From Rhodobacteraceae bacterium CCMM004 (GTDB taxonomy: Bacteria; Pseudomonadota; Alphaproteobacteria; Rhodobacterales; Rhodobacteraceae): 64,000 nucleotides of DNA. The notes under the pieces are model-generated. The model was not told the DNA's origin. It saw nothing but the letters and a program-made list of their open reading frames with translations, and made no database searches. A program made the position numbers and the translations under genes. The stretch covers positions 131,501-195,500 of the forward strand of contig RZWH01000004.1 of the NCBI GenBank assembly GCA_004005435.1. The letters are read 5' to 3'. Positions 8,826-40,317 of the stretch are shown one piece after another; positions within the stretch are counted from its first letter, which is position 1; every line of letters begins with the position of its first letter.

Positions 8826-11609
8826 CTATTGCGCCGCCAGCGGCGTTTCGTCGACGGCCTCGACCCGGACCGCCGAAAACTTGAACTCCGGGATCTTGCC
8901 CCAGGGATCGAGCGCGGGATTGGTCAGGAGGTTCGCCGCCGCCTCCACGTAGGCGAAGGGGAGGAACACCATGTCCTCGGCCACGGCCCGGTCGGCGCGC
9001 GCCGTCACCTCGACGCTGCCGCGGCGGCTGGTAAGCCGCACCTTGCCGCCCGGTGCCACGCCGAGCCGCCGCAGCGTCGCGGGATGCATCCCGCAGGTCG
9101 CCTCGGGCTCGACCGCGTCCAGAACCGCCGATCGCCGGGTCATCGACCCTGTGTGCCAGTGTTCCAGCTGCCGCCCGGTGGTCAGGATCATCGGAAAGCT
9201 CTCGTCAGGCAGCTCGGCCGGCGGCGTTACCCGCGCCGGCGTGAACTTGGCACGCCCCGCCCGCCGCGGGAAGCCGTCGCCGAACACCACCGACTGACCC
9301 GGATCCTCGTTGGACAGGCACGGATACTGCACCGCCCCCTCGGCCTCCAGCCGCTTCCAGGTAATGTGATGGAGCGAGCGCATGGACATCTTCATCTCGT
9401 CGAAGACTTCGCGCGGATCGTCGTAGTCCCAGTCGAGCCCGATGCGGTTGGCCAGGTCCACGATGACGCGCCAATCCTCGCGCGCCTCGCCCGGGGGCGG
9501 CACGGCGGGGCGGCCCATCTGCACCTGGCGGTTGGTGTTGGTGACCGTTCCGCGTTTCTCGGGGAATGCGGCGGCGGGCAGGATCACATCCGCGAACATC
9601 GCCGTTTCGGTCAGAAAGATGTCCTGGACCACCAGGTGGTCGAGATGGGCCAGCGCCTTTCTCGCATGGCCCACGTCGGGGTCGGACATCGCCGGGTTCT
9701 CGCCCAGGACATACATCCCCCGGATCTCGCCGCGATAGACGCGGTCCATGATCTCGACCACGGTGAGGCCAGGCGCCGCGTCGATCTGCGTGCCCTTCCA
9801 GATGTGGCGAAAGAGTTCGCGCACCTCCGGGTCGGCGACGCTCTGATAGTCCGGCATGACCTGGGGGATGAGCCCGGCATCGCTGGCGCCCTGCACGTTG
9901 TTCTGCCCGCGCAGGGGATGCAGGCCCGTGCCTGGCCGCCCCACCTGCCCGCAGAGCAGCGCCAGGGAGATCAGGCAGCGCGAGTTGTCGGTGCCGTGAA
10001 TATGCTGGCTGACCCCCATGCCCCAAAAGATCATCGCGCGGCGGGCCCCGGCATAGGTCCGCGCGACCTCGCGGATCGTCTCGGCGTCGATGCCGCAGAG
10101 CGGCGCCATCTTCTCCGGCGGGAAGGCGCGGATATGGTCGCGGAACTCGAAGAAGCCTTCGGTGAAGCCCTCGATATACTGCCGGTCGTAGAGCTTTTCC
10201 TCCACGATCACGTTCATGATCGCGTTCAGCAGCGCCACGTCGGTGCCCGGGCGGAACTGAAGCATGTGGGTCGCGTGCCGCTTGAGCGCCTGACCGCGCG
10301 GGTCGATCACGATCAGGTCGCCACCCCGCTTGGCGAACTGTTTGAAGAACGTGGCGGCGACGGGGTGGTTCTCGGTCGGGTTTGCGCCGATGACGATGGC
10401 GCAGTCGGCGTTCTCGATCTCGTTGAAGCTGGCTGTGACGGCGCCCGAGCCCACGTTCTCCATCAGCGCCGCGACGGACGAGGCGTGGCAGAGGCGGGTG
10501 CAGTGGTCGACGTTGTTGTGGCCAAAGCCCTGGCGGATCAGCTTTTGAAACAGATACGCCTCTTCGTTGGTGCACTTGGCGCTGCCGAAACCGGCCACCG
10601 ACTTGCCGCCGAAGAAGCTGCGCAGGTCGGCCAGGCCGTGGGCAGCGACGTCCAGGGCCTCGTCCCAGTCGGCCTCGCGGAAATGGGTCCAGGGGTTCGC
10701 GGGGTCCACGTTCAGCCCCTTTTCCGGCGCGTCGTCGCGGCGGATCAGAGGGCGGGTCAGCCGGTGGGGGTGATGGATATAGTCGAACCCGAAGCGCCCC
10801 TTGACGCAGAGGCGCCCCTCGTTCGCCGGGCCGTTTATGCCGTCGGCCTTGACCACCTTGCCGTCGCGGACCTTCAGCGACACCTGGCAGCCGACACCGC
10901 AGAACGGACAGACCGACGCGACCTCGTCGTCCCAGGTGCCGCCGTCGCCACGCTGGGCCTCGTCCAGCACGCGGGCCTCCATCAGCGCACCGGTGGGACA
11001 GGCCTGCACGCATTCGCCGCAGGCGACGCAGGTGCTCTCGCCCATGGGATCGGCGAAGTCGAAGACCGGATAGCTGTCGTGCCCGCGCCCGGCCATGCCG
11101 ATGACGTCGTTGACCTGAACCTCGCGGCAGGCGCGGACGCAGAGGCCGCACTGGATGCAGGCGTCGAGGTTGACGCGCATCGCCACATGGCTGTCGTCCA
11201 GGATCGGCACGCGGGCGGGCTCTAGCGGCGGCAGGCGGCTGTCCTCCACCCCCTGCGCGGCGGCCATGGTCCAGAGGTGGCTCGACCGGTCGTGGGCGTC
11301 GGCCTGTGGGGGCTGGTCGGCCAGCAGCATCTCCATCACCATGCGCCGGGCCTTGGTCTCGCGCGGGGCGGCGGTGGTCACGGTCATCCCCTCGACGGGT
11401 CGGCGGATGCACGACGCGACCAGCGCCCGCTCGCCCTCCACCGCGACCATACAGGCGCGGCAATTGCCGTCTGGGCGGTAGCCGGGGGCGGACTTGTGAC
11501 ACAGATGCGGCAGGGTGGTGCCCTCGCGCCGGGCGACGTCCCAGATGGTCTCGTCCGGCCCTGCCGCGACGGCGCAGCCGTCGAGGGTAAAGCGGATGGT
11601 GTCGGTCAT
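8826..11609 (-). CDS. fdhF: Formate dehydrogenase alpha subunit (Mo/W-bis-MGD), orphan
   Basis: A 927-residue enzyme, formate to CO2. An N-terminal 2Fe-2S domain has C37, C50, C53 and C67, followed by two 4Fe-4S motifs ([11 protein letters not shown] and [15 protein letters not shown]), the CPFCGVGC cluster of the molybdopterin domain, and the active-site region [13 protein letters not shown], where Cys takes the place of selenocysteine. It continues with the molybdopterin-binding core and a C-terminal molydopterin dinucleotide-binding domain. This layout matches alpha subunits of NAD-linked formate dehydrogenases (FdsA/FdhF), but no fdsB, fdsG or fdsD homologue is adjacent. The ATG at 11609 has GGAGG 6 bases upstream. 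Electron partner unknown. Confidence 0.92.
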
Positions 11610-11714
11610 GGTGGGCCTCCCCGGGTCGTCCCCGACCTTAGAGCAGCAGGGCGTCGACCGGAACAGGCCCGGGGCGACGAAACCCGGCCCGTTTGCGTCC
11701 CGCGGGGCGGCGAC

Positions 11715-11767
11715 GGGACGGCGGGCGGGGCGACGTGCGCAGCACGAGCGCCGTGCCGCCGGACATT
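11715..11767 (+). repeat. 53-bp intergenic repeat, copy 2
   Basis: Second copy of the element at 5197-5249 (49 of 53 identical, same orientation). Here it lies in the 209-bp divergent region between formate dehydrogenase and the histidine phosphatase, 51 bp before the latter's ATG. The inner gtgc-gca-gcac hairpin is unchanged; the right arm has one substitution. Confidence 0.75.
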
Positions 11768-29926: not shown

Positions 29927-30619
29927 CTAGCCCGCGTCGTCCTTCAACTGGAGCATTGCCGAGCCCATGGCGACCTCGATATAGCGGCGGATCTCGGCCT
30001 CGGCGCCGTCGGCGTCGCCCGCCACGATCCTCTGCCGGACGAGGTCGAGCTGGGCCATCCCCTCCTCGACCTGACCCGGCCGCGACAGCGACAGGGCGCG
30101 CACGAGCTCGATCCGGGCGTTGAGATGGGCCAGCATCTCTTCGGCGATCGTGTTGTCCGCGATCTCGGCCATGTAGGTGATGTACCGGGTGGAGTGGGCG
30201 ATCTGGGTGTGCGGACCGCAGTGGCGGATCGCGTGGTCCAGCCGGTCCAGGATGACCTTCAGATGCGCAATCTGTCGGTCCGTCGCCCGGGCGACGAAGG
30301 CGCGGATGATCATGACCTCCAGTTCGGCGCGGACCTGGTAGATCTCGCGCACGGTCTTTTCGGTCAGTTTGGTGATGCGCAGGCCCTGGTGGGGCACCGC
30401 CTCGCCCAAGCGTTCGGCGTCAAGCTGGCGGATGACCTCGCGCGCGGCGGTGCGGCTGATGCCGTGGGTCTCGCACAGCGCCCGCTCTGTGAGGCGGGCG
30501 CCGGGGGGGAGCGCGCCCGACGCGATGGCGCGGCGCACCTCTTTCAGGACGTCCTCTCGCACCAGGCGGGTCCGGGACGCGCCGCTGCCCTGTGACTGCC
30601 GCCGCCCGCTCCCGGCCAT
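29927..30619 (-). CDS. GntR-family transcriptional regulator, FadR/FCD subfamily
   Basis: A 230-residue regulator. The winged helix covers about residues 20-85 (REDVLKEVRRAIASGALPPGARLTERALCETHGISRTAAREVIRQLDAERLGEAVPHQGLRI), and the helical FCD ligand domain about 95-220 (VREIYQVRAELEVMIIRAFVARA... HLNARIELVRALSLSRPGQVEEGMAQLDLVRQRIVAGDADGAEAEIRRYI). The metal-ligand histidines usual in FCD are only partly visible. It is the last gene of the peptide-transport operon and very likely controls it through the operator at 37433-37445. AGAGG precedes the ATG. Confidence 0.92.
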   Translation of the reverse strand: MAGSGRRQSQGSGASRTRLVREDVLKEVRRAIASGALPPGARLTERALCETHGISRTAAREVIRQLDAERLGEAVPHQGLRITKLTEKTVREIYQVRAELEVMIIRAFVARATDRQIAHLKVILDRLDHAIRHCGPHTQIAHSTRYITYMAEIADNTIAEEMLAHLNARIELVRALSLSRPGQVEEGMAQLDLVRQRIVAGDADGAEAEIRRYIEVAMGSAMLQLKDDAG

Positions 30620-30704: not shown

Positions 30705-32123
30705 CTATTCGGCGGCGACGGGCGGGCGCGTCTCGGCCGGGATCGGACAGCTATAGGGGAACTCGGCCAGATGCGCGGCATGTACCTTCTTGGCGTTGGC
30801 CAGCAGCACCTCGTTGGCGATCACGCTGCGGGCGGTCGCCGCCATCACCTTGGCCGCGTGCTCCATTCCCTTATGGGCGAAGGGCTCTTTGCCCTGGGCG
30901 GTCAACTGCCAAGTGTGAAACGGGGTTCCCATCGCGCAGGTGGCGACGCGCGCCTGGACCGTAGGGACCGCCCAACTCACATCGCCTACGTCGGTCGACC
31001 CCATGCCGCCGGCAAAGGGCCGGTCCAGCGGAGCGACGAAATCGCAGAGCGCCAGGTCGTAGTCGGGCTTCATGCTGAGGCGTTGGAACGTGTCGGCGAT
31101 GTCGGCCTTGGTCAGCGTCTCGCGAATTTCGCGGGCGAAGGTCACATCCTCGTCGTCGAACGGCACCGGCCCGAGCGCGTCGAACTCGGCCTGCATCGCC
31201 TCTTCCAGCGGGCGGTTGCCCACCAGGTTCGAGACGGCGGAGTGCACCTTGGACGTCACCTGGGTGCCGGTCATCAGGGCCGCGCCGTCGCCGATCGCCC
31301 GCACGCGGGCCAGTAGATCGCCGAGGCCCTGCAAATCGCGGCTGCGGATCAGCTGCCGCACGGTCGCCTTGGCCTGGACCACGTTGGGCGCAGGGCCCCC
31401 CGCATCCAGATAGGCATAGTGCACCCGCGCGTCGTCGGGCATGTGTTCGCGCATGTAGTTCACGCCGATGTTCATCAACTCCACCGCGTCGAGCGCACTG
31501 CGCCCCAGCTCGGGCGCGGCCGCCGCATGGGCCGCCTTGCCGGTGAAGGTGAAGTCGATGCGCATGTTCGCCAGCGACCGGGCGTCGTCCACACCGTTGA
31601 AGCTGGCGGGATGCCAGGTGATGGCGATGTCGACGTCGTCGAACAGCCCCTCGCGGACCATGTAGGTCTTGGCCGCGCCGCCTTCCTCGGCCGGGCACCC
31701 GTAGTAGCGCACGCGCGCCGCGATCCCCTCGGCCGCCAGCCAATCCTTCACCGCCGTCGCCGCCAGCATCGCCGCGGAGCCCAGCAGGTTGTGACCGCAG
31801 CCATGGCCATAGCCGGTGGCATCGATGCTCTGGGGTTCGGCCAACCCCGGCGCCTGGCTCAGTCCGGGCAGCGCATCGTATTCGCCGAGGATCGCGATGA
31901 CGGGACCGCCCTCGCCCGCCTCGCCCATCACCGCCGTCGGAATGCCGGCGATGCGTTCCTGCACGCGGAACCCCTCGGCCTTGAGCATAGCGGTATGCTC
32001 GGCGCAGGAGCGCGTTTCCGTATAGGCGATCTCGGGCATGTCGAAGACGCGGTCGGACAGCCCGATATACTCTTCGCGCTTGGCCTCGACGTAGGACCAA
32101 ATCGGGTTCTCGTTGGATGACAT
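30705..32123 (-). CDS. M20-family amidohydrolase, AbgB-like
   Basis: A 472-residue metallo-hydrolase of the M20D/AbgB branch. It has ILGEYDALPGLSQAPG, the metal motif GYGHGCGHNLLGSA, PAEEGGAAKTYMVREG with the catalytic glutamates, and the lid-domain FTFTGKAAHAAAAPELGRSALDAVELMNIGVNYMREHMP. AbgB cleaves p-aminobenzoyl-glutamate; relatives cleave other N-acylated amino acids or dipeptides. The start at ATG 32123 has GGGAGGG 5 bases upstream. The gene is downstream of the ABC transporter on the same strand, so it probably hydrolyses the imported compound in the cytoplasm. Confidence 0.9.
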   Translation of the reverse strand: MSSNENPIWSYVEAKREEYIGLSDRVFDMPEIAYTETRSCAEHTAMLKAEGFRVQERIAGIPTAVMGEAGEGGPVIAILGEYDALPGLSQAPGLAEPQSIDATGYGHGCGHNLLGSAAMLAATAVKDWLAAEGIAARVRYYGCPAEEGGAAKTYMVREGLFDDVDIAITWHPASFNGVDDARSLANMRIDFTFTGKAAHAAAAPELGRSALDAVELMNIGVNYMREHMPDDARVHYAYLDAGGPAPNVVQAKATVRQLIRSRDLQGLGDLLARVRAIGDGAALMTGTQVTSKVHSAVSNLVGNRPLEEAMQAEFDALGPVPFDDEDVTFAREIRETLTKADIADTFQRLSMKPDYDLALCDFVAPLDRPFAGGMGSTDVGDVSWAVPTVQARVATCAMGTPFHTWQLTAQGKEPFAHKGMEHAAKVMAATARSVIANEVLLANAKKVHAAHLAEFPYSCPIPAETRPPVAAE

Positions 32124-32146: not shown

Positions 32147-32911
32147 TCACTCTGCGGTCACCGCGGCGCGGCTCGCCGCGATCAAGGTGCGTGTGTATTG
32201 CTCCTGCGCGCGCTGGGCGCGCAGATCCTCGACGCTCATTTCCTCGACGATGCGGCCCTGGGTCATCACGGCGATGCGGCTGCACATATGCGCGATCACT
32301 CGCAGGTCGTGGCTGACCATCACATAGGTCAGCCCGCGGGCCCGGCGCAGCGCGTTGAGGACGTTGAGCACGCCCGCCTGCACCGACACGTCCAGCGCAG
32401 ACGTGGGTTCGTCGAGCAGCAGGATCCGCGGCTCCAGGAGCAGGGCGCGCGCCACGGCCACACGCTGGCGCTGGCCCCCGGACAACTGATGCGGATAACG
32501 ATAGGCGTATTCGGGGGCCAGGCCGACATCCACCAGCACCTGCGCGATGCGGTCGTCGCGTCGGTCCAGACGGTAGATCTCCAGTGGCTCCATCAGCGTC
32601 GCGCGGATCATCCGGCGTGGGTGCAGCGAACCATAGGGATCCTGAAACACCATCTGCACCGTCTTGAAGAAGGCGCGGGCGCGCGGGCGCGGCGCCATCT
32701 GGCCGTCGATCAGCACGCCGCCCTCGTAGTCGTCGAGCAGACCGGTGACCGCCCGCAGGATCGTGGACTTGCCACTGCCGGACTCGCCGATAATGCCGAA
32801 GGCGTCCCCGGGCGCGACGCTAAAGCTCGCCCGGTCCACGGCCTGGACTCGCGCACGACCGTGGCCGAAGGCGATGGACAGGTCGGCGATTTCGAGGCTC
32901 GGCGCGCTCAT
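32147..32911 (-). CDS. Dipeptide/oligopeptide-type ABC transporter ATP-binding protein (DppF/OppF-like)
   Basis: A 254-residue ATPase. Walker A GESGSGKSTI, Q-loop VFQDPYGSLHPRRMI, signature LSGGQRQRVAVARAL, Walker B ILLLDEPTSALDVS and switch histidine in VMVSHDLRVI. The C-terminal extension typical of OppD/OppF is short (QYTRTLIAASRAAVTAE), as in simple DppF forms. It overlaps the companion ATPase gene by 4 bp. Works as a heterodimer with it at the inner membrane. Confidence 0.94.
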   Translation of the reverse strand: MSAPSLEIADLSIAFGHGRARVQAVDRASFSVAPGDAFGIIGESGSGKSTILRAVTGLLDDYEGGVLIDGQMAPRPRARAFFKTVQMVFQDPYGSLHPRRMIRATLMEPLEIYRLDRRDDRIAQVLVDVGLAPEYAYRYPHQLSGGQRQRVAVARALLLEPRILLLDEPTSALDVSVQAGVLNVLNALRRARGLTYVMVSHDLRVIAHMCSRIAVMTQGRIVEEMSVEDLRAQRAQEQYTRTLIAASRAAVTAE

Positions 32912-33756
32912 TTCCGGATCTCGGTCAGCCAGGAGGGATCGTATTCGGGCACGATCAGCTCGTCGACCGCGTGATCGAGCGGCGGCAGGCTGGCGTGCAG
33001 GGAGACAGTGTAGGGATGGGTGGCCTGCGACAGATCCCGCGCCGCGAGTTCCTCCATCACCTGGCCGCCATACATGACCAGGACCCGGTCGCAGAAGTCG
33101 CTGACCAACGGCAGGTCGTGGGAGATCAGGATCAGGCCCGCGCCCTGCGCCTCGACCCGCTCGTTCAGGATTTCGAGGATCTGCCCCCGCACCGTCACGT
33201 CGAGCGCCGAGGTCGGCTCGTCCGCGATCACCAGTTCGGGAGACGCGATCAGCATCATCGCGATCATGACCCGCTGCCCCATGCCGCCGGATAACTCGTG
33301 GGGGTAGAGGTCGACGACGCGCCGCGGGTCGCGGATATGCACATCCTCCAGCATCGCCAGCGTGCGGTCGCGCGCCTCGGCCCGGCCCGCCCGGGTGTGG
33401 ATGCGATAGGACTCCATGATCTGCGCCCCCACCGTCTTGAGCGGATTGAGCGCATATCGCGGGTCCTGGAGGATCATCGCGACGCGGCCCCCGCGGATGT
33501 CGCGCATCTGCGCCTCGCTCGCAGTCAGCAAGTCGACATCGGAGAGGCGGAGGGCGTCGGCGCTGACCCGCGCCTTGGGCGGGAGCAGACGCATGATCGC
33601 ACGCCCGGCCGTGGATTTGCCCGAGCCGGACTCGCCCACGATCCCCAGCTTCTCGCGCCCGAGGGTAAAGGAGATGCCGCGCAGGGCGTCGGAGTATCCG
33701 TGGGCCGACGGATAGGCCACGCGCAGGTTGCGAACGTCGAGCAAGGGATCAGTCAT
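32908..33756 (-). CDS. Dipeptide/oligopeptide-type ABC transporter ATP-binding protein (DppD/OppD-like)
   Basis: A 282-residue ATPase with Walker A GESGSGKSTAGRAIM, Q-loop MILQDPRYALNPLKTV, signature LSGGMGQRVMIAMML, Walker B LVIADEPTSALDVT and switch motif ISHDLPLVSDFCDRV. The C-terminal region HPYTVSLHASLPPLD is the conserved Opp/Dpp tail (usually HPYT-x-x-L); the cysteine cluster of OppD iron-sulfur forms is absent. It overlaps the permease gene by 8 bp and the partner ATPase by 4 bp. Confidence 0.94.
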   Translation of the reverse strand: MTDPLLDVRNLRVAYPSAHGYSDALRGISFTLGREKLGIVGESGSGKSTAGRAIMRLLPPKARVSADALRLSDVDLLTASEAQMRDIRGGRVAMILQDPRYALNPLKTVGAQIMESYRIHTRAGRAEARDRTLAMLEDVHIRDPRRVVDLYPHELSGGMGQRVMIAMMLIASPELVIADEPTSALDVTVRGQILEILNERVEAQGAGLILISHDLPLVSDFCDRVLVMYGGQVMEELAARDLSQATHPYTVSLHASLPPLDHAVDELIVPEYDPSWLTEIRK

Positions 33757-34672
33757 TGCGCGGATCGAGCACGTCCCGCAGGCCGTCGCCCAGCAGGTTG
33801 AAAGCGAGACTGACCAGCATGATCGCGGCCCCCGGCGTCGCGGCGAGCCACCAACTCGTCAGCATGAACTGCCGCCCCGAGGCCAGCATCGCGCCCCATT
33901 CGGGGCTGGGCGGCTGCGCGCCGAGGCCCAGGAACCCGAGCCCGGCGGCCGTCAGGATGATGCCGGCCATGTTGAGCGTGACGCGCACAACCACCGAGGG
34001 CAGGCAGATCGGCATCACGTGCTTGAGGATCAGCCGCATCGAACTGGCTCCCTGGAGCCGAGCCGCGGCGATATAGTCGGATTTACGCACCGTCAGCGCC
34101 TCTGCGCGGGCGAGCCGCGCGATGGGCGGCCACGCCGACAGCGAAATGGCGATCACCGCGTTCTCGATCCCCGGCCCCAATGCTGCGACGAAGGCGAGCG
34201 CCAGGATGAGCGACGGAAAGGACAGGAAGACGTCGACCAGCCGCATCGCCACGATGTCGAACCAGCCTCCCAGATAGCCGGCGGTGGCGCCGACGGCGAG
34301 GCCGATCGGCCCTGCGATCGCCGCCACCAGAAGCGCCATCATCAGCGTGATCCGCGCCCCGTAGAGGATGCGAGTCAGGATGTCCCGGCCCAGATCGTCG
34401 GTCCCCAGCCAATGCTGTGCCGAGGGCGGCTGCAGGCGCGCGGTCAGGTCTTGCTGCAACGGCGAATAGGGCGTGAGGTACGGCCCGATGACCGCCATCG
34501 CGACCAGCAGCACCAGCACGATCAGTCCGGCCAGCGCTGCGCGGTTGGCGATCAGGCGCTGCCAGCCGCGCCAGAAGGCCTGGGCGCGGGCCTGCCGCGG
34601 CGAGCTGGCGGTCGGCGCCTGGAGCCAGTCGCGGAGGCTCTGGCGTGCGGGGGTCGCTGGGGTATCGGTCAT
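33749..34672 (-). CDS. Dipeptide-type ABC transporter permease (DppC/OppC-like)
   Basis: A 307-residue membrane protein. The N-terminal cytoplasmic region is followed by LIANRAALAGLIVLVLLVAMAVIGPYLTPYSP, then HWLGTDDLGRDILTRILYGARITL (the DppC signature), and the EAA loop EALTVRKSDYIAAARLQGASSMRLILKHVMP. It ends with the usual GLGFLGLGAQPPSPEWGAMLASGRQ and NLLGDGLRDVLDPR. ATG 34672 overlaps the DppB stop by ATGA. Forms the channel with the DppB-like subunit. Confidence 0.94.
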   Translation of the reverse strand: MTDTPATPARQSLRDWLQAPTASSPRQARAQAFWRGWQRLIANRAALAGLIVLVLLVAMAVIGPYLTPYSPLQQDLTARLQPPSAQHWLGTDDLGRDILTRILYGARITLMMALLVAAIAGPIGLAVGATAGYLGGWFDIVAMRLVDVFLSFPSLILALAFVAALGPGIENAVIAISLSAWPPIARLARAEALTVRKSDYIAAARLQGASSMRLILKHVMPICLPSVVVRVTLNMAGIILTAAGLGFLGLGAQPPSPEWGAMLASGRQFMLTSWWLAATPGAAIMLVSLAFNLLGDGLRDVLDPRND

Positions 34673-35742
34673 CGCGTCCTCGGATCGAACACGCGGTAGA
34701 ACACGTCGCTCAGAAGATTGAGCGTGATGAAGATGAGCCCCACGATCATCGTGCAGCCCAGCACCGCGTTCATGTCGGCGCGGAGCAGCGCCGTGGTCAG
34801 ATACCGCCCGAAGCCGGGCCAGGCAAAGACGGTTTCGGTCAGCACCGCCCCTTCCAACAGAAATGCATAGGACAGGGCGACCACGGTGACGAGCTGCACC
34901 GCGATGTTCGGAAAGGCATGGCGCCAGATGACGCTCTGCCGCGAGGCGCCCTTGGCCTGGGCGGCGATGATGTATTCCTGGCTGAGCTGCTCCAGCATGA
35001 AGCTGCGCGTCATCCGGCTGATATAGGCCATCGCGCCGTAGGCGAGGATCGACGCGGGGAGCACGATGCGGCTGAAGACGTCGGCGAAAATGTCCCAGCG
35101 CCCGGCCATGGCCGAGTCGACCAGATAGAGGCCGGTCCTGACCTCCAGATCGTATTGAAAGACGATGTCGATGCGCCCCGGCGGCCCGACCCAGCCCAGA
35201 GCGGCGTAAAATACCGTCAGTCCGAGGAGGCCCAGCCAGAAGATCGGGGCGGAGTAACCAATGAGCGAGACGACGCGCACCACCTGATCGATCCATGTGT
35301 CGCGGTTCGCGGCGGCCACCACGCCCAGCGGTATGCCCAGCCCGGTGCCCAGGATCATCGCCACCGTAGCCAGCTCCAGCGTCGCCGGAAACACCCGCAG
35401 GATGTCCTCGGCCACGGGCCGGCCGCTGGTCAGCGACGTGCCGAAATCGAATTGCAGGCTGTTCCAGACATAGGTGACGAACTGTTCCCACAGGGGTTTG
35501 TCGAGGCCCAGTTTGACCACCATCCGGTCATACGCCTCCTGGCTCGCGTCGTCGCCCAGGATGGCCAGGACGGGATCGAGCGGCAGCAGCCGCCCGATGA
35601 AGAAGGTCAGGGCCAAGAGACCCAGGATCGTGACGGAGACGGAAACGACCGTCCTGAACACCTGCCCGCCCATCCTGCCCCATCGCATGGATGAGACAAG
35701 ATGGGGGGCGGATTCGGTGCCGGCAGGATCGCTTGCCGACAT
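34669..35742 (-). CDS. Dipeptide-type ABC transporter permease (DppB/OppB-like)
   Basis: A 357-residue permease. After an unusually polar N-terminus it has FRTVVSVSVTILGLLALTFFIGRLLPLDPVLAILGDDAS and the periplasmic loop with NSLQFDFGTSLTSGRPVAEDI, then the EAA loop LSQEYIIAAQAKGASRQSVIWRHAFPN and the ending FITLNLLSDVFYRVFDPR. It is slightly longer than most DppB proteins (about 310-340 residues), mainly at the N-terminus and in the central periplasmic loop. It starts 3 bp after the binding-protein stop. Confidence 0.94.
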   Translation of the reverse strand: MSASDPAGTESAPHLVSSMRWGRMGGQVFRTVVSVSVTILGLLALTFFIGRLLPLDPVLAILGDDASQEAYDRMVVKLGLDKPLWEQFVTYVWNSLQFDFGTSLTSGRPVAEDILRVFPATLELATVAMILGTGLGIPLGVVAAANRDTWIDQVVRVVSLIGYSAPIFWLGLLGLTVFYAALGWVGPPGRIDIVFQYDLEVRTGLYLVDSAMAGRWDIFADVFSRIVLPASILAYGAMAYISRMTRSFMLEQLSQEYIIAAQAKGASRQSVIWRHAFPNIAVQLVTVVALSYAFLLEGAVLTETVFAWPGFGRYLTTALLRADMNAVLGCTMIVGLIFITLNLLSDVFYRVFDPRTR

Positions 35743-37542: not shown

Positions 37543-40317
37543 ATGAACAACGAGGCACTTTACCCGCCGATCCAGCCCTTCGCGACCCATCGCCTCGCGG
37601 TCGATTCCCCCCATGTTCTGTATGTCGAGGAATCGGGAAACCCCTTCGGCATACCGGTGGTGTTTCTGCATGGCGGGCCCGGCGCCGGGAGCAAACCGGC
37701 GCAGCGGCGCAGCTTCGATCCCGCCCGCTATCGCATCGTCCTGTTCGACCAGCGGGGGTGCGGCCGCTCCACCCCGTCGGCCGAGTTGCAGGGGAACGAC
37801 ACCCAGGCGTTGATCGCCGATATCGAGAGGGTTCGCGCGCATCTGGGCATCGACCGCTGGATGGTCGCGGGCGGCTCCTGGGGCAGCCTGCTGAGCCTGG
37901 CCTATGCCATCGCCCATCCCGACCGATGCAGCGCGCTGCGGGTGCATGGCATCCTGCTGGGCCGGCCCGAGGAGGTGCGGTTCTGGTATCATGGGATCGG
38001 AACCCTGTTCCCCGACGCCTTTGAGGACTACGCCGGCCATGTCCGGCCCGACGAGCGGGACGACCTACTGACCGCGTATTACACCCGCCTGATCGACCCC
38101 GATCCCCAGGTGCACATCCCCACCGCCCAGGTACTGCGCGGGTTCTCCGCCCGCACGCAGACCCTGCTGCCCAGCGCGGCGCACGTGTCGGCCCTGTCGC
38201 AGCCGAAGGCAATGTTGGAATGCTCGCGGCTCTTTGCCCATTACTGCGTCAACGGGTTCTTCCTCCCCGAAAACCACATCCTCGACAACATCGACCGTAT
38301 CCGTCACCTGCCCTGCGAGATCGTGCAGGGCCGCTACGACGTGGTGACCGCGATGACGAGCGCGTGGGATCTGCACCGCGCCTGGCCAGAGGCGCGGTTT
38401 ACAGTGGTCGACCTGGCCAACCATGTGGCCACCCCCGAGGCGCCGGACCTGTCCACGGCGCTGCGCGCCGCCTCCGACAGGCTGGCCGACGGGCCCGACC
38501 TGCCGCCCATCGAGAGCTATCTCGCCGCGCGCGCGCACCACTCGCCTGCGGTGTCCGAGGATGGCGCGGTCATGGCCTGGCTGTCGGACGAAACCGGGTT
38601 CGATCAGATCTGGTCGCGCGATCTGACCGACCCCGACGCTCCGGCGGTCCTGCGCACCTGTCTCTCCGAACGGGTCTGCGGCTTTGCCTTTCGCCCCGGC
38701 AGCCGGGACCTCCTGTTCACCACCGACGCCGGCGGCAACGAGCATTTCCAACTCCATCTCCTGCGCGAGGGGGCCGCGGCGCCAGACGCCCTGACCGAGG
38801 CGCCGGGCGTCGTGCACAACTGGGGCTGCTTCGATGCGTCCGGCGGGCGCATCGCCTATGCCAGCAACGCCGTCGATCCCACGGCGATGCAAATCCACCT
38901 GCGCGATCTCGACAGTGGCAAGGACGAGGTGATCCTGACCGGCCCCGGCTATCGCACGCCCCGCGCCTTCACCCCCGACGGCACGGCGCTGCTGGTCGAG
39001 GACAACCGCGACGGCATGTTCGACGCGGCCCTCGATCTGGTGCCGCTGGATGGCGGTGCGGCGACATCCCTGCTCCCCGGCAATCAAGGGCACGGCAGGG
39101 GTGCGCACATCAACGCCACGCGCTGGGTCGACAAGGGCGCGCGGCTGCTGGCGGCCACGGACCACGGGCAGAGCTTTCACGGGCTCGCCCAGATCGACGC
39201 CGAGAGCGGCGCGCTCGCCTGGCTGGCACAGCCCGCCGGGGACGTGGAGGCGATGGCCGTCGACCGCGCACAAGAGACCGTCGCCTATGCCTGGAACGAC
39301 GAGGGTTACAGCCGCCTGGTCCTGCTCGACCGCACGACGGGCGCCGAGACCGAGCTGGCCCTGCCCGAGCCCGGCCGGGTGACGACTCTGCTCTTCGCGC
39401 CGGACCAGGCGGCGGTGATCGTCGCGCTGGCCCGGTTCCGCGGGCCGTCGCGGATCCTGCGGATCGCCCGCGACGGCGGAGCCGCGGACATCCTGTGCCA
39501 GGGCGACACCGTCCTGGCGAAAGAGGACACGGTCGAACCCACCATCGAACGGTTTTCCAGTTTCGACGGTGCCGAAGTGCCCGCCTTCGTCTTCACCCCG
39601 CGCACCCCGGCCCCGCCCGAGGGACGGCCGGTGTTCTTCATCGTGCACGGCGGGCCGGAGTCGCAATACGCGGCGCATTGGCGATCCGACGCCCAGTATC
39701 TGGCCCGGCGCGGGTGGCTCGTCGTTGCGCCGAACGTGCGCGGCTCGACCGGCTACGGGCGCGCGTGGCAGGCGGCCGACGATCTGGAGCTGCGCATGGA
39801 CCCGGTGCGCGACCTCAAGGCGATCCGCGATGCGGTCGCGGCGCGCGCCGATGTCGATGACCGGCGCATGGTCGTTTCGGGGCAGAGCTATGGCGGCTTC
39901 ATGGTCCTGGCCGCGATCACCGAGTATCCCGACGACTGGTGCGCGGCGGTCGATTTCTACGGCATCGCCGATTTCAACACCTTGCTGGCCGCGACCGGCC
40001 CCTGGCGGCGCAAGCTGCGCGCGGTGGAGTATGGCGACCCCGACACCGAGGCGGGCCGCGCGATGTTGGCCGAACTGTCGCCCTATCGAAAGGTGGGCGG
40101 CATCCGCACCCCGCTGTTTCTGGCCCATGGCGGCGACGATCCCCGCGTCACCCCCGCCGAGAGCGAGCTGGTCTATGCCGCGCTCATCGGCCGGGGCCAT
40201 GACTGCGAACTGATCCGCATCGACCACGAAGGGCATGGCTTCGTGCGGCTGAAGAACCGCCAAAAGGTCTTTGGCGCCATGATGCGGTTTGTCGAAACCC
40301 GTGCGAGGAGTGCGTGA
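37543..40317 (+). CDS. Proline iminopeptidase fused to S9 acylaminoacyl-type peptidase
   Basis: A 924-residue fusion of two complete serine peptidases. Residues 1-315 are a proline iminopeptidase (S33): HGGPGAGS, FDQRGCGRS, nucleophile S112 in GGSWGS, D266 in GRYDVV and H294 in LANHVATPEA. Residues 318-680 form a beta-propeller-like region starting PPIESYLAARAHHSPAVSEDG; residues about 690-924 are the S9 catalytic domain with S782 in GQSYGG, D866 in HGGDDPR and H898 in DHEGHGF. Both triads look intact. No signal peptide, so cytoplasmic. Each half normally occurs alone. The gene is divergent from a peptide transporter and overlaps an amidase gene, which suggests stepwise breakdown of imported peptides. 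Confidence 0.9.
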   Translation: MNNEALYPPIQPFATHRLAVDSPHVLYVEESGNPFGIPVVFLHGGPGAGSKPAQRRSFDPARYRIVLFDQRGCGRSTPSAELQGNDTQALIADIERVRAHLGIDRWMVAGGSWGSLLSLAYAIAHPDRCSALRVHGILLGRPEEVRFWYHGIGTLFPDAFEDYAGHVRPDERDDLLTAYYTRLIDPDPQVHIPTAQVLRGFSARTQTLLPSAAHVSALSQPKAMLECSRLFAHYCVNGFFLPENHILDNIDRIRHLPCEIVQGRYDVVTAMTSAWDLHRAWPEARFTVVDLANHVATPEAPDLSTALRAASDRLADGPDLPPIESYLAARAHHSPAVSEDGAVMAWLSDETGFDQIWSRDLTDPDAPAVLRTCLSERVCGFAFRPGSRDLLFTTDAGGNEHFQLHLLREGAAAPDALTEAPGVVHNWGCFDASGGRIAYASNAVDPTAMQIHLRDLDSGKDEVILTGPGYRTPRAFTPDGTALLVEDNRDGMFDAALDLVPLDGGAATSLLPGNQGHGRGAHINATRWVDKGARLLAATDHGQSFHGLAQIDAESGALAWLAQPAGDVEAMAVDRAQETVAYAWNDEGYSRLVLLDRTTGAETELALPEPGRVTTLLFAPDQAAVIVALARFRGPSRILRIARDGGAADILCQGDTVLAKEDTVEPTIERFSSFDGAEVPAFVFTPRTPAPPEGRPVFFIVHGGPESQYAAHWRSDAQYLARRGWLVVAPNVRGSTGYGRAWQAADDLELRMDPVRDLKAIRDAVAARADVDDRRMVVSGQSYGGFMVLAAITEYPDDWCAAVDFYGIADFNTLLAATGPWRRKLRAVEYGDPDTEAGRAMLAELSPYRKVGGIRTPLFLAHGGDDPRVTPAESELVYAALIGRGHDCELIRIDHEGHGFVRLKNRQKVFGAMMRFVETRARSA

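Follow-up and report, generated by a model that had tools for sequence, protein, structure and literature searches.

A single protein of 924 residues, encoded at 37543–40317 on the forward strand of a 64,000-nucleotide stretch of DNA (the window) from the marine-type bacterium Rhodobacteraceae bacterium CCMM004, joins an S33 domain of the prolyl aminopeptidase fold to an S9 domain resembling acylaminoacyl peptidases. Both halves are conserved, and the residues by which prolyl aminopeptidases read an N-terminal proline are replaced in the S33 half. We consider it fairly probable that the fusion is a cytoplasmic hydrolase with two active sites, belonging to a peptide-uptake operon and acting on imported peptide-like compounds, with its S33 site re-specialised. 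The gene offers a clean case of two peptidases known as adjacent operon genes turned into one protein. It also brings to light a subfamily whose members are labelled “prolyl aminopeptidase” by automatic annotation (as in locus L082 of Paracoccus aestuarii) and in which the proline-reading residues are gone, and it bears on the activity left to S33 enzymes once amine recognition is lost and on what the conserved M20/Opp operon imports.

Results

The fusion is an intact and conserved gene

The open reading frame of the fusion contains no internal stop, and its ATG start is preceded by AAGGGGACAACG. The profile TIGR01249, an equivalog of prolyl aminopeptidase, matched residues 11–312 with 318.5 bits, which is above its curated cut-off of 259.75, and PF00326 (Peptidase_S9) matched residues 714–919 with 134 bits. 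The original prediction that S33 and S9 enzymes share one chain was thus borne out by both profile matches and the uninterrupted frame. Full-length fusions with 62–84% identity were found in eight other genomes, which are those of Stappia stellulata, Oceaniovalibus, Pseudoruegeria, Kandeliimicrobium, Jannaschia, Rubrimonas and two metagenome-assembled Rhodobacteraceae. When the fusion was compared with four relatives, the dN/dS was 0.10–0.20 in the S33 half and 0.11–0.28 in the S9 half, and both halves are under purifying selection. The conserved full-length homologues together with the low dN/dS ruled out a frameshift or a chance frame as the source of the fusion. The original prediction would have fallen with a frameshift, or with separate adjacent genes in all close relatives; no frameshift was found, and the close relatives keep the fusion.

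The distribution of the fusion is sparse. A family-level sample of 296 genomes, one per genus, contained it in its own genome and in one other (63% identity, matching the Rubrimonas copy), and the order-level sample of 391 genomes likewise gave its own and one more. Four long S33 frames (G091, G625, G566 and G336) were searched for further fusions and had no S9 match. A description of an S33–S9 fusion was not found in the literature covered, which was that of open-access papers, outside subscription papers and domain-architecture databases. Antisense to the fusion, an open frame of 732 residues runs at 38065–40263 on the reverse strand and is most likely an effect of the high G+C.

The S33 half has the prolyl aminopeptidase fold and a changed substrate pocket

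The S33 domain spans residues 1–316 (37543–38490, forward strand). Because this half was poor in the full-length AlphaFold model (mean pLDDT 68.6 overall), it was modelled alone, and the resulting model (pLDDT 87.8) matched 1wm1 with a TM of 0.95 and has a complete cap. In alignment to 1qtr, the triad is formed by Ser112 (37876–37878; Ser113 of 1qtr), Asp266 (38338–38340; Asp268) and His294 (38422–38424; His296), all on the forward strand, as the original prediction had placed it. The triad and the HGGPG motif of the oxyanion loop are invariant in all nine fusions.

Substrate recognition by the Serratia enzyme has been reported for Phe139, Tyr149, Phe236, Glu204 and Glu232, of which Glu204 and Glu232 bind the N-terminal amine of the substrate (reviewed in PMC9147577). 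The alignment and the site table showed that, on the forward strand, the fusion has Ser202 (38146–38148) and Phe231 (38233–38235) in place of the amine-binding Glu204 and Glu232, Cys235 (38245–38247) in place of Phe236 of the proline pocket, and His135 (37945–37947) in place of Arg136. Positions 136/204/232/236 in Serratia numbering read R/E/E/F in 48/48 canonical sequences sampled, and H/S/F/C in all the fusions and all unfused operon homologues. Further stand-alone S33 proteins of Alphaproteobacteria read R/S/F/C, H/S/F/G, N/S/F/V or S/S/F/V, and the triad is kept throughout, also in these. The pair of amine-binding glutamates expected of S33.001 is therefore absent from the fusion and from all homologues of its clade. 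The hydrophobic pocket of Phe139, Tyr149 and Phe236 is likewise incomplete, since Phe236 is changed to Cys in all fusions and operon homologues; position 139 is Leu or Phe, and position 149 depends on the alignment (Tyr/Phe in one, Trp in another). Proteins with E204S and E232F, unfused and stand-alone members included, formed one clade with a support of 100/100 in an S33 tree whose alignment retained the signature columns.

A separate canonical proline iminopeptidase, reading R/E/E/F, is encoded elsewhere in the same genome (contig C20). Because the amine-binding glutamates are replaced and the canonical enzyme is separate, the S33 domain is probably not a proline iminopeptidase although it passed the TIGR01249 cut-off, and the earlier view of this half as a full enzyme of that kind was not supported. 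The loss of Glu204 and Glu232 was read from the alignment and the fold match, and a compensating residue may conceivably take their place.

Tandem pairs of stand-alone S33 genes from the E204S/E232F clade were observed in one alphaproteobacterial family (L107 8788–10739, L109 5514–7480 and L110 4275–6181). The second copy of these pairs has N or S at position 136 and V at position 236, and in L107 and L109 the pair lies, by eye, directly downstream of a short-chain-dehydrogenase-like gene.

The S9 half resembles acylaminoacyl peptidases

The S9 domain (residues 317–924, or about 318–924; 38491–40314, forward strand) was assigned by profile and structure match and consists of a β-propeller and an α/β hydrolase domain. 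The list of structure matches of the full model is taken up by this part and is uninformative for the S33 half; residues 318–924 matched 5l8s with a Z of 36 over 584 residues. The nucleophile Ser782 in GQSYGG (39886–39888), Asp866 in DPRV (40138–40140) and His898 in EGHG (40234–40236), all on the forward strand, are invariant in 9/9 fusions, in agreement with the triad first proposed, and Arg868 is likewise invariant. In two loci of stand-alone S9 relatives (L072 9050–12461 and L076 4469–7064), a serine-hydrolase-like gene was seen by eye next downstream, and annotation places serine hydrolase genes at the ends of the Paracoccus and Ketogulonicigenium operons as well.

The fusion adjoins a peptide-type importer

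Divergent from the fusion, the reverse strand carries a family-5 periplasmic binding protein (SBP) gene of the peptide type (PF00496; 35746–37419), followed by genes for an OppB/DppB-type permease assigned by profile (34669–35742), an OppC/DppC-type permease read from its open frame with an approximate start (33749–34672), an OppD-type ATPase (32908–33756), an OppF-type ATPase (32147–32911), an M20 amidohydrolase (30705–32120, approximate start; TIGR01891, 240 bits) and a GntR/FCD regulator (29927–30619). The nearest solved structures of the M20 enzyme are HmrA and Xaa-Arg dipeptidase (3ram and 8xzc). On the forward strand, an amidase-signature hydrolase (PF01425; 40314–41960) begins with a GTG that overlaps the stop of the fusion in the sequence GTGATG. 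No LuxR gene was found among the listed coding frames between the GntR/FCD regulator and this amidase.

Of the eight other loci, six have the whole divergent importer (SBP, B, C, D and F) and the M20 gene adjoining the fusion, and five of these six also have the GntR regulator. The seventh locus is a short contig in which only part of the SBP gene is visible, and the Rubrimonas fusion has no importer genes within 8 kb. The downstream amidase is present in 3/8 of the other fusion loci.

Unfused operons contain the two enzymes as adjacent genes

In Paracoccus aestuarii (L082, a plasmid record), the S33 gene (8968–9945) and the S9 gene (9932–11725) share an overlap of 14 nt. Downstream of them lie the M20 and SBP genes, two permease and two ATPase genes, and genes for a serine hydrolase and MmgE/PrpD. 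In three plasmids of Neorhizobium galegae, 2–4 nt lie between the S33 stop and the S9 start, and the M20-SBP-B-C-D-F genes follow in the same order. The M20, SBP, OppB, C, D and F homologues of the unfused operons showed 51–71% identity. In the N. galegae VafX2 copy (L081 9965–18548), S9, M20, OppD and OppF are in broken pieces, whereas they are whole in the other two N. galegae plasmids, which suggests decay or sequencing errors. Ketogulonicigenium and Bartonella HY328 have an operon of this type with S9 and with no S33 alongside; that of Bartonella sp. HY328 (L086 10797–18696) has two M20 and three binding-protein genes. No S33 gene was found beside the stand-alone S9 genes of other Alphaproteobacteria in eight loci.

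In the S33 tree, the fusions grouped on a single branch (100/98) within a clade of operon proteins (99/95), and they did so too in the S9 tree (100/100), again within an operon clade (99/98); the S9 tree has several long branches, and the order of its unfused rows among themselves is unsure. Since the fusion stands on one well-supported branch in the separate trees of each half, a single origin from adjacent genes of a peptide-import operon is the simplest reading. Adjacent separate S33 and S9 genes are likely the ancestral state; both trees are unrooted, and the direction from separate to fused was deduced from separate genes being more widespread. Neither pairing is obligatory, because the Rubrimonas fusion occurs without the importer and the operons of Ketogulonicigenium and Bartonella HY328 without S33.

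Discussion

We propose that the Opp-type importer would bring a small peptide-like or amide-linked compound into the cell, where the S9C-type site would cut it as an oligopeptidase or in the manner of an acylaminoacyl peptidase. The S33 site would then hydrolyse a piece whose N-terminus need not be a protonated proline. Breakdown would be completed by the M20 enzyme, together with the amidase in those loci that have it. The fusion protein would be cytoplasmic, as it has no obvious signal peptide. Its most likely advantage would be a fixed 1:1 supply of two enzymes already co-expressed. Channelling between the S33 and S9 sites is possible, and operon coupling with fixed stoichiometry explains the fusion equally well, because the same operon type has adjacent separate genes. 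More tentatively, and with somewhat less than even confidence, we suggest that the S33 domain may found a distinct hydrolase subfamily, marked by E204S and E232F and acting on a new class of substrate, and that its fusion with S9 may be a two-step enzyme dedicated to one imported peptide-like compound of marine Rhodobacterales and not a general peptidase.

The TIGR01249 score, the fold match to 1wm1 and the intact S33 triad would also suit a fusion in which an S9 enzyme is joined to an active proline iminopeptidase and proline-rich or blocked peptides are channelled. That the equivalents of Glu204, Glu232, Phe236 and Arg136 are replaced in every fusion and unfused operon homologue, and that the genome has a canonical enzyme besides, makes this quite unlikely. 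Slightly better placed, though still unlikely, is an S33 domain that is no longer a peptidase and acts as an esterase, lactonase or amidase on a specific imported non-peptide compound, leaving the peptide work to S9, which might itself be an esterase-like acylaminoacyl hydrolase. It is a serious rival because most members of S33 are non-peptidases in a recent classification (PMC11878206). The triad kept while the amine-binding glutamates became Ser and Phe fits such a role, as do the amidase and M20 neighbours and, in Paracoccus, the beta-lactamase-type and MmgE/PrpD genes; however, the relatives of the importer and of the M20 enzyme are of peptide type, and the entire cap and fold remain very near those of prolyl aminopeptidases. 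A reading in which the S33 domain has no catalytic activity and instead provides the S9 enzyme with a structural or oligomerisation module is very improbable. The changed specificity residues and the related operons having S9 without S33 would agree with an idle domain, but the triad and HGGPG motif are invariant, the two halves are equally low in dN/dS, and the triad also persists in stand-alone relatives that carry these changes.

Among the known systems, the S33 half is nearest to prolyl aminopeptidase S33.001 (Serratia 1qtr/1wm1 and Xanthomonas 1azw), with which it shares the complete fold including the helical cap, the triad and the HGGPG and GGSWGS motifs; it differs in both amine-binding glutamates, Arg136 and Phe236, and in being joined to an S9 enzyme. 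The S9 half is similar over its whole length, propeller and hydrolase, to S9C acylaminoacyl peptidases (Sporosarcina 5l8s, Z 36; Aeropyrum 1ve6, Z about 32), including the triad and an invariant DPR, but its identity to them is about 18–23% and a whole second enzyme precedes it. The P. aestuarii and N. galegae pairs have the two proteins in the same order with the same S33 signature, and M20 and Opp genes next to them, but as two genes, which where annotated are named pip and S9 family peptidase. The PipR/PipA/AapA locus of Pseudomonas GM79, in which two cytoplasmic peptidases work together with an ABC peptide transporter (PMC4981722), is a functional analogue of the arrangement seen here, an ABC peptide importer beside peptidases predicted to be cytoplasmic. 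Its peptidases are separate and have demonstrated proline/alanine aminopeptidase activity, whereas the fusion is one chain, and its regulator is of the LuxR type, in contrast to the GntR/FCD regulator at the fusion locus.
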